A program made the translations under genes and the position numbers. The notes below the pieces were generated by a model that was given only the letters and a program-made list of their open reading frames with translations, did not search any database and was not told the origin of the DNA. From Gymnodinialimonas sp. 202GB13-11 (GTDB lineage Bacteria > Pseudomonadota > Alphaproteobacteria > Rhodobacterales > Rhodobacteraceae), in assembly GCF_040932485.1 (NCBI RefSeq), contig NZ_JBFRBH010000001.1, positions 1,426,001-1,490,000 on the forward strand: 64,000 nucleotides of DNA, given 5' to 3'. Positions 54,020 to 55,165 of this stretch are shown one piece after another (within the stretch, counting starts at the first letter, position 1; each line of letters starts with the position of its first letter).

Positions 54020-54062
54020 GATGGGCCTCCCGTGCTGCGTGGTGTTCATCCGTTAAGGGCAA

Positions 54063-54087
54063 GATAGGTCACAAAAGCTGACCTGTC
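54063..54087 (-). promoter_or_regulatory. Operator-like inverted repeat upstream of the oxidoreductase gene
   Basis: GATAGGTCA and TGACCTGTC (9-bp arms with one mismatch) flank CAAAAGC, 44 nt upstream of the ATG at 54019. Such a site often binds a dimeric regulator; the regulator cannot be named. Confidence 0.45.
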
Positions 54088-54155
54088 TAGCAAAACAATC
54101 GTGAAACCTTGTGTCCCCCGCACCGTTGCGCCAGCATCGCACCTGCCCATCCATG

Positions 54156-54257
54156 TGTGGCTAGGGTTCCGCTGACGATGCGTCAGGTCTGGAGCGAGCG
54201 CCACGGCAGCCGGTGCACCGGCGGACACCTTAAGGGATAGAAGACCAGGGGGGATGG
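54156..54257 (+). ncRNA. ykkC-class (guanidine-I-like) riboswitch candidate upstream of the EamA gene
   Basis: The conserved blocks are CTAGGGTTCCG (54161-54171), GGTCTGG then CGAG (54186-54198), ACAC (54225-54228) and GGGATAGAAG (54234-54243) then a G-rich end. GTGGC (54157-54161) pairs with GCCAC (54200-54204) to close P1, with hairpin CTGACG-ATG-CGTCAG inside it. Canonical ykkC has CUGGUCCGAGAG and AAAAGCCCGGGAG; this copy differs at several of those positions, so ligand class is uncertain. Confidence 0.6.
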
Positions 54258-54313
54258 CATGGGCGCGGCTTTGCCGTGCCTTGCAACCTCCTGCCCCGAA
54301 AGGGCCGCCACAC

Positions 54314-55165
54314 ATGACACTTCTTGGCTTCTCCCTTGTTCTCGCCGCCGCATTTGCCCATGCCGGGTGGAATTTTCTGGTAAAACGCCTCAATGGCGGA
54401 CCCGAGCTTATCTGGCTCTTCGGTACCGTTTCGCTACCGATCTTCGGACCTCCGGCGATATACTTTGCCCTCACCTTCGACGGCTGGACCTGGCTTGCCG
54501 TGCTGGCACTTGTCGGCAGTGCGCTACTTCATCTGGTCTATTTCTTGCTCCTGCAAGCGGGCTACCGCGTCGGTGATCTGTCCGTCATCTACCCCACCGC
54601 CCGCTCTACTGGCCCAGTCCTTTCGTCACTTTTGGCGTTTCTGCTTCTGGGACAGGCGCTACCACTGCAAGCAGCAATCGGTGGCGCGGTCATCGTGTTT
54701 GGCGTCGCCATGCTGACCTTTGGCCCCAAAGGCAGTACTCGCCCGCTAAAATCACTGGCTTATGGCTTAGCCGTCGGCCTGCTGATTGGTAGCTACACGG
54801 TTTGGGATGCCTGGGGCGTGTCGGTCCTGCTTATCCCGCCCATCGTGATGGATTATGCCACAGCCCTATTACGCTCGATCCTACTGTTGCCCTATGCACT
54901 GAAACGCTGGGATAGTGTCTGTGTGCTCTGGAGCGATCATAGAATAGAAGTCGTAGCCATTGCCGTACTTAGCGGCCTGGCCTACATCCTAGTGCTCTAC
55001 GCGCTGACCTTCACACCCGTGATCTACGTCGCCCCCTTGCGTGAAGTCTCTGTTCTGATTGCAGTACTCCTCGGATCCATCATGCTCGGCGAAGGTCAGC
55101 TTGCCCGAAGATTGATCTGGGCGAGCGTTATTCTGGCAGGCGTCAGCATTCTGGCGACAAGCTGA
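54314..55165 (+). CDS. EamA/DMT-superfamily permease
   Basis: Inner-membrane permease of 283 residues with about ten helices in two EamA repeats; the second repeat has YALTFTPVIYVAPLREVSVLIAVLLGSIMLGEG and ends with LIWASVILAGVSILAT. DMT-superfamily members export small metabolites. The ATG at 54314 is the start of a typical first helix; an in-frame start 60 nt upstream would extend it into the riboswitch candidate. That leader is the only clue to substrate. Confidence 0.88.
   Translation: MTLLGFSLVLAAAFAHAGWNFLVKRLNGGPELIWLFGTVSLPIFGPPAIYFALTFDGWTWLAVLALVGSALLHLVYFLLLQAGYRVGDLSVIYPTARSTGPVLSSLLAFLLLGQALPLQAAIGGAVIVFGVAMLTFGPKGSTRPLKSLAYGLAVGLLIGSYTVWDAWGVSVLLIPPIVMDYATALLRSILLLPYALKRWDSVCVLWSDHRIEVVAIAVLSGLAYILVLYALTFTPVIYVAPLREVSVLIAVLLGSIMLGEGQLARRLIWASVILAGVSILATS

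Follow-up and report, generated by a model that had tools for sequence, protein, structure and literature searches.

Subtype 2d of the ykkC riboswitches is an orphan class found before EamA or TauE genes, and in the passages of the 2020 text that treat it (PMC7266159) it is the ykkC class whose ligand had yet to be found. Subtype 2 as published is marked by a pyrimidine at the position of A46, and the same passages describe the three solved subtype-2 classes as binding phosphorylated ligands. The published guess for 2d is a guanidine-like toxic compound, and its consensus is called most similar to guanidine-I in the relevant passage of PMC5912903. No ligand is given in the 2018 and 2020 open-access papers naming 2d, sources that would miss a later solution, and no mention of the subtype was found in the available text of the 2022 and 2025 reviews. 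Guanidine-I RNAs contact their ligand through the G33-A34 bulge, G63, G64 and G81, A34 in 5U3G touching the guanidinium (available text of PMC11661666), while the PRPP aptamer holds its ligand with G48, C49, C77, C78, G96, G104 and bases of the P0 region (available text of PMC6031431). The latter text also describes the guanidine-I, ppGpp and PRPP members as ON switches.

The window, meaning the whole stretch of 64,000 nucleotides analysed here, contains a match to the Guanidine-I model RF00442 that spans the full length of the model at 54150-54253 (42.2 bits; E 1.6e-6 in a local scan on 291 nt, E 5.3e-6 when scaled to the whole genome), and this copy is the sole RF00442 match up to E 1 in the whole-genome scan. 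The score falls short of the gathering score of 63, for which reason a default cmscan of the window lists no Rfam family; by that cut-off the RNA lies outside Guanidine-I, and it belongs to the ykkC scaffold by its significant covariance-model match and its conserved helices. The first-pass annotation, made from the letters of the DNA, had proposed a ykkC-class RNA and had set such a match beforehand as the test, which bore it out. The blocks that it recognized stand in the order given, CTAGGGTTCCG at 54161-54171, GGTCTGG at 54186-54192, CGAG at 54195-54198, ACAC at 54225-54228 and GGGATAGAAG at 54234-54243, and P1 is closed, as described, by GTGGC (54157-54161) with GCCAC (54200-54204). The aptamer is slightly longer than first noted, P0 reaching from 54150 to about 54259. 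We consider it likely that 54150-54259 is the aptamer of a subtype 2d ykkC riboswitch turning on the EamA exporter; that its ligand would be anionic is less sure. The parts are the following:

54150-54154, forward strand: 5' strand of P0 (UCCAU), pairing with 54254-54259
54156-54161, forward strand: 5' strand of P1 (cmscan alignment; covariation helix 2)
54161-54171, forward strand: ykkC core block CTAGGGTTCCG, nearly unchanged across guanidine-I, PRPP and EamA-type rows, although fixed by the search pattern in pattern-scan rows
54169-54192, forward strand: P1b hairpin (covariation helix 4; 94.9% of cells paired, both-side changes in 5 of 8 pairs)
54194, forward strand: window-specific G in place of an otherwise universal C, breaking the P1a pair with G54165
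54198-54199, forward strand: pocket dinucleotide G-C, G-A in guanidine-I (alignment columns)
54200-54205, forward strand: 3' strand of P1 (cmscan alignment; covariation)
54209-54222, forward strand: P2 hairpin GCCGG-UGCA-CCGGC (fold; covariation helix 5, 73.4% of cells paired)
54225-54229, forward strand: pocket strand ACACC, CACGG in guanidine-I
54234-54248, forward strand: P3, A-rich loop, CCAG and long-range pair C54226-G54248 (C-G in 86 of 86 rows, the G being fixed by the search pattern in 72 of them)
54254-54259, forward strand: 3' strand of P0 (AUGG, bulged C, A; flank-helix tests)
54262-54280, forward strand: hairpin GGCGCGGC-UUU-GCCGUGCC directly 3' of the aptamer (sequence; free fold)
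54307-54316, forward strand: GCCACACAUG, including the EamA start codon
54314-55165, forward strand: EamA-family transporter gene, 283 aa (PF00892, E 1.5e-11)

The evidence for an RNA is comparative, drawn from aligned relatives, and not a matter of fold energy, which is not unusual for the candidate alone (z -0.90). In an alignment of 86 rows, fitted to the model and hence biased in its favour in the covariation test, standard pairs occupied 83.4% of pair cells against 70.1% after shuffling, both sides had changed in 20 of 29 pairs (17.0 in shuffled alignments, 2 of 500 reaching the observed value) and 382 cells were changed on both sides, compared with 140 ± 13 in shuffled and 47-88 in slid controls. 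Five of the six P1 pairs change on both sides in these 86 sequences, the outermost being unpaired in 71, so that the expected conservation of P1 in relatives holds. The parallel expectation of a conserved GGGATA block survives in part: in group A, the window's own type as defined below, G54234 is kept in 22 of 26 RNAs and G54235 in 26 of 26, whereas the third G is kept in 8 of 26, and relatives vary in the block (e.g. AGGACGAAAAG). Covariation and the genome-wide E-value rule out a chance match, and the predicted conserved fold of the window RNA is shown by comparison to be real.

Scanning of 295 genomes of the family with RF00442 yielded 58 matches in 55 genomes with a bimodal distribution of scores, 50 (47 genomes) lying over the cut-off at 66-92 bits and eight at 30-52 bits. 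Seven of these eight, the window copy among them, precede EamA; the other, L044 (5005-5114; 51.9 bits, under the cut-off), is guanidine-I-like, carries CAAGAA instead of CGAGAG and stands before another gene. A variant covariance model, R1, built from 11 variants, gives 77-114 bits to variants and up to 54 bits to guanidine-I RNAs across the 295 family and 385 class genomes. Scans of these and of 13 genus genomes (five with the RNA) make up a variant set of 14, and the guanidine-I set comprises the 50 RNAs aligned out of 52 loci, L024 and L044 standing outside the alignment. An EamA gene follows all 14 variants (in part judged by eye), and an EamA-like ORF is found among the two longest downstream of none of the 50 guanidine-I RNAs, 43 of which are followed by a protein that resembles ABC substrate-binding proteins and carries W[ST]IYxGWMP. 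The RNAs themselves part in the same places: CACC in 14/14 variants against CACGG in 50/50 guanidine-I RNAs, and CCAG in 13/14 against CCCGGG in 50/50. A discrete break from guanidine-I and an association with EamA are shown by this comparison of sequences.

A pattern scan of species genomes, which forced CTAGGGTTCCG, CRAGYG and CCAGRGG, gave 80 loci among the matches listed (at least 119 stretches), and R1 matches 79 of them; L179, the sole listed locus without an R1 match, was taken as chance. Seven Firmicutes loci among those listed precede purine-synthesis or xanthine phosphoribosyltransferase-like genes, as judged by eye, and are taken as PRPP-type RNAs. The 72 EamA-type loci listed come from Alphaproteobacteria, Burkholderiales, cyanobacteria, Chloroflexi and others, seven of them from genomes also present among the 14 variants; EamA is seen in 71 (63 by phmmer, six by mutual clustering, two of these Pfam-checked, and two by eye, L143 and L146), the stretch of L194 ending before the gene. 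The gene context that marks subtype 2d, EamA or TauE downstream, is therefore present in the window (PF00892), in 14/14 variants and in 71/72 listed loci, one being cut off, and it is by this context and the published text that the window RNA is assigned to 2d. The 79 distinct non-PRPP rows of the alignment, taken from the variant set and the listed scan matches together, comprise group A, the UCCAU...AUGGA type of the window (26 rows), group B, the AUCGAC...GUCGA type (42 rows), and group C, with UCAAC...GUUGA and others (11 rows). The regular expression sorted L207 into C, yet it resembles the group-A RNAs apart from an altered 5' end. The variant at L060 (1501-1609), perhaps decaying, has an altered core (CTAGGGATCTG) and stands before an EamA gene, and at L141, L200, L207 and L210 the EamA match is split over two reading frames, from broken genes or assembly errors.

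In the model-fitted alignment P0 is paired in only 58.5%, since its register is a different one in groups B and C. The raw flanks of 77 RNAs gave a helix score of 5.62 against 4.81 with permuted partners (best of 200, 5.09), whereas those of 49 guanidine-I RNAs gave no P0 signal (4.91 against 4.90, 94 of 200 as high); L060 and L085 stand outside the 77 and outside the flank-helix, start-codon, RBS and folding tests. With permutation within groups and a free helix search, group C exceeded its controls (6.77 against 5.37, 0 of 200 as high) and no excess appeared in group A (37 of 200) or in the near-invariant group B (39 of 200). Group A finds its support in a fixed register, with 4.79 of 5 pairs against 4.60 permuted (0 of 2000). 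There, 20 of 24 distinct RNAs hold all five pairs, UCUAU/AUAGA (5 RNAs) and UUCAU/AUGAA (1 RNA) being compensated types; the window's type, UCCAU/AUGGC (3 RNAs), holds four and one other RNA three. The window's own best flank helix is UGCCCAU/AUGGGCG, not P0. For five of the seven PRPP-type RNAs the best flank helix adopts the same register of P0. That P0 closes the aptamer, and that it is absent from the guanidine-I RNAs compared here, is shown by this comparison of flanks.

The second departure from guanidine-I concerns the pocket. Column 54199 is C in 79/79 EamA-type and 7/7 PRPP rows, and A in 49/50 guanidine-I rows; C or T at this column was fixed by the search pattern in most EamA-type and PRPP rows, and C is found in all 14 RNAs obtained without the pattern, the window included. 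Columns 54229-54233 of guanidine-I were shifted by the model and are left out of the counts. C54199 is the subtype-2 pyrimidine at the A46 position, and with CACC it replaces the A of the AG bulge and the CACGG of guanidine-I; from the differing end of the motif, the first-pass annotation had suspected a divergent subclass with another ligand. With Guanidine-I (RF00442, subtype 1) the RNA shares CTAGGGTTCCG, P1, P1a, P1b, P2, P3 and the long-range C-G pair, and it differs by the changed pocket positions, a longer strand before P3, the added P0 and another target gene. Were the RNA instead a divergent guanidine-I riboswitch controlling a guanidine exporter, this would accord with the best Rfam match, which is Guanidine-I, and with the single superfamily to which phn_DUF6 proteins and guanidine transporters are assigned in a passage of PMC5912903. 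However, the A that contacts guanidinium (A34 in 5U3G; available text of PMC11661666) is C in 14/14 variants, and CACGG, which by our own mapping contains G63 and G64, is CACC in all 14, so that we regard this explanation as highly improbable. The window RNA is thus a ykkC-scaffold RNA divergent from guanidine-I and placed before an EamA gene, and its ligand is probably not guanidine.

By position, in our own transfer of the PRPP-aptamer numbering, G54198-C54199 correspond to G48-C49, ACACC (54225-54229) to A74-C78, with C54226-A-C-C54229 as C75-C78, and G54248 to G96 (contacts from the available text of PMC6031431). The window thus carries C49, C75-A76-C77-C78 and G96 of the PRPP riboswitch (2b), besides P0, and the seven PRPP-type RNAs have C at 54199 and CACC in common with the EamA-type RNAs. 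In the two PRPP-type RNAs tested, the RF00442 score was 54-55 bits, also under the cut-off. In contrast, the pyrophosphate site, A103-G104-G105 with A5-G6, is not reproduced, U standing for A5 while G6 is kept; a purine gene is likewise missing from the gene context, and the window leader shows no terminator. Group A ends in GGGG-AUGGA, and UAGG adjoining P0' is found in 0/24 group-A, 0/42 group-B and 7/11 group-C RNAs. A riboswitch of subtypes 2a-2c, for PRPP, ppGpp or a nucleoside diphosphate, with an exporter as its incidental target could explain the presence of G48, C49, C75, A76, C77, C78 and G96 (own mapping; available text of PMC6031431), the UAGG before P0' in group C and the AAG before P1, at the pyrophosphate site, in several group-C RNAs. 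The lack of UAGG in groups A and B, the U for A5 in group A, and the EamA context in 71 of 72 listed EamA-type loci (one cut off), compared with purine genes in the seven Firmicutes loci, make it quite unlikely; UAGG is itself a weak marker, because it occurs in just 4/7 PRPP-type RNAs. The mark of ppGpp RNAs (2a), a base other than G at 96, is absent, as G54248 aligns with 96 and pairs with C54226.

The pocket seems made for a small molecule resembling phosphate, not for guanidine. Since two guanidine-pocket positions carry the bases that hold the 5-phosphate of PRPP, and P0 is present, we infer with less assurance a ligand that is a phosphate-bearing or similar anionic metabolite. A phosphate-like anion is also the parsimonious guess for 2d, because the solved subtype-2 classes bind phosphorylated ligands, and it is predicted here because the pocket matches the PRPP class better than it does the published guanidine-like guess. 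More specifically, and only as a tentative proposal that we hold at somewhat less than even odds, the EamA-linked ykkC RNAs may form one class for such metabolites: they would share the 5-phosphate/ribose half of the PRPP pocket, have its pyrophosphate half exchanged and occur in three or more P0 architectures. On that reading EamA would serve as a valve for the efflux of an oxyanion compound (phosphorylated sugar-like, phosphonate-like or other), counter to the published expectation of a guanidine-like toxin. The EamA-type RNAs, with their helix and pocket, would turn the search for the 2d ligand from guanidine-like cations to phosphate-like anions and would indicate a substrate type for an EamA exporter family of unknown function; they also offer clean constructs for ligand testing.

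Subtype 2d would instead be a mixture if group A were a class apart from group B with a ligand of its own. The position of P0 and the 3' end differ between them (GGGGGGAUGGA in A, GGMGGAGACGUCGA in B), as does the base before CAC (A in group A, G in group B), and the EamA clades differ as well, with phmmer scores to the window protein of 254-476 bits in group A (intact genes) and about 130-165 in group B. Yet the pocket bases are identical in both groups, and the EamA genes behind the cyanobacterial group-C RNAs L172 and L217 are closer to those of group A (223-228 bits), for which reason RNA and protein groups do not coincide; separate classes are an unlikely solution. With 2d as published (available text of PMC7266159 and PMC5912903) the RNA has in common the EamA gene downstream, the ykkC scaffold and the pyrimidine at the A46 position. 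Extra conserved flanks are mentioned there for 2a-2c only, whereas P0 and a PRPP-like pocket are seen here, and P0 with CACC fits poorly with a 2d consensus nearest to guanidine-I (PMC5912903, same passage). The available published text does not describe for 2d the helix and the pocket seen in the set of 79 distinct EamA-type RNAs (the window and its relatives); subtype 2d, the extra helix P0 and the PRPP-type pocket were not named by the first-pass annotation either.

The EamA gene that it had placed downstream is borne out by PF00892, and homologues support the start codon at 54314; they also rule out translation from the ATG at 54254 inside the aptamer. The nearest NCBIfam model of the protein is phn_DUF6, TIGR03340 (119.1 bits, under its cut-off of 288), and no PDB relative was found at E 0.01. 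None of the best 30 TIGR03340 loci of 398 phylum genomes (six over the family cut-off) has an R1 match, and none of 18 TIGR03340 loci scanned has an RF00442 match. In the fetched stretches, no gene besides EamA recurs widely across genera as an operon partner that might hint at the ligand. An RpiB-like gene (ribose-5-phosphate isomerase B-like; PF02502 in L178) lies divergently upstream of the EamA leader at L049, L178 and L188, in Donghicola and Sphingomonas/Sphingomonadales; as a ligand clue it was set aside, two lineages being what chance allows by a rough reckoning. Seven RNAs (L143, L144, L173, L177, L181, L192 and L201), from Chloroflexi, Actinomadura, Fraserbacteria and Armatimonadota, retain almost all of the PRPP contacts, with UAGG in six; the EamA genes after them belong to a different subfamily, near TIGR00950 in the two tested, and these RNAs are possible PRPP sensors for an exporter.

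By analogy with the ON-switch members of ykkC, ligand binding would turn the exporter on. The small molecule would bind at the P1a/P3 junction and stabilise P0 and P1; in its absence the 5' strand CAUGUGUGGC (54152-54161) would form a perfect duplex with GCCACACAUG across the start codon (OFF), and with ligand that strand would be held in P0/P1, freeing the start codon from it. A repeat search shows 54152-54161 to be a perfect 10-bp complement of 54307-54316, a pairing used in the free fold and not conserved in most group-A relatives. The distance of 62 nt from CCAGGGG to the start codon, together with a terminator search of the window leader that found none, makes control at translation probable. 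Among the 74 of 77 leaders with a resolved start, the start codon lies 35-66 nt after CCAGRGG, apart from L195 (125) and L157 (25), exceptions with doubtful start calls. The window RBS is unpaired at 0.17 in the free fold and 0.52 with the aptamer forced, a gain of 0.35 exceeded by 1/12 shuffles, and forcing makes the RBS more accessible, by over 0.1, in 13/22 group-A, 26/39 group-B and 3/11 group-C leaders. Shuffled downstream sequences give nearly the same gain (real against shuffled: A 0.139 and 0.123, B 0.136 and 0.124, C 0.081 and 0.127), so a general anti-RBS platform is not supported, and translation control stays, for the same reason, a matter of inference. The forced aptamer costs about 22 kcal/mol in an energy model that is blind to tertiary contacts and with P3 left out. 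In the free fold, pairing of the RBS with the aptamer exceeds that of shuffled sequences in groups A (0.52 against 0.37) and C (0.53 against 0.42), without excess in B (0.42 against 0.44). Complementarity of tail and RBS shows no excess in group A (-12.97 against -13.06 shuffled), and in group B a complement GAGACGUCGAGAUC / GGAGGUCUC before the start codon reaches -14.30 kcal/mol against -11.05 shuffled over 39 leaders, seven of which attain p 0.05 singly. Pairing of the 5' strand with the RBS beats shuffles at p 0.05 in 2/23 group-A leaders, the window and L086, and L051 has p 0.08.

G54194 is unique to the window, C being found at this column in 135/136 rows (guanidine-I 50/50, PRPP 7/7, A 25/26, B 42/42, C 11/11). 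The EamA gene is present in seven of the 13 genus genomes, and in five of these seven the RNA is there too; the other two keep EamA (91% and 85% identical) without the aptamer. In one (G006) the leader passes from the initial P0/P1 bases straight into the region of the downstream hairpin, and in the other (G004) nothing aligns past the shared promoter region, the leader alignment being read without row L266. Because of the unique core change and of these two relatives without the RNA, the window copy may be weakening.

Two further elements were seen near the leader. A TauE/SafE exporter gene (PF01925; 49710-50570, reverse strand), the other gene type named for subtype 2d, follows a large oxidoreductase gene 3.5 kb from the EamA leader, and a TauE/SafE-like gene is similarly placed in the same-genus loci L051-L054. 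An inverted repeat, GCAAGATAGGTCA-N7-TGACCTGTCTAGC (54059-54091), is found between the EamA leader and the divergent oxidoreductase gene; it may be an operator and is largely kept in aligned same-genus relatives with and without the aptamer.
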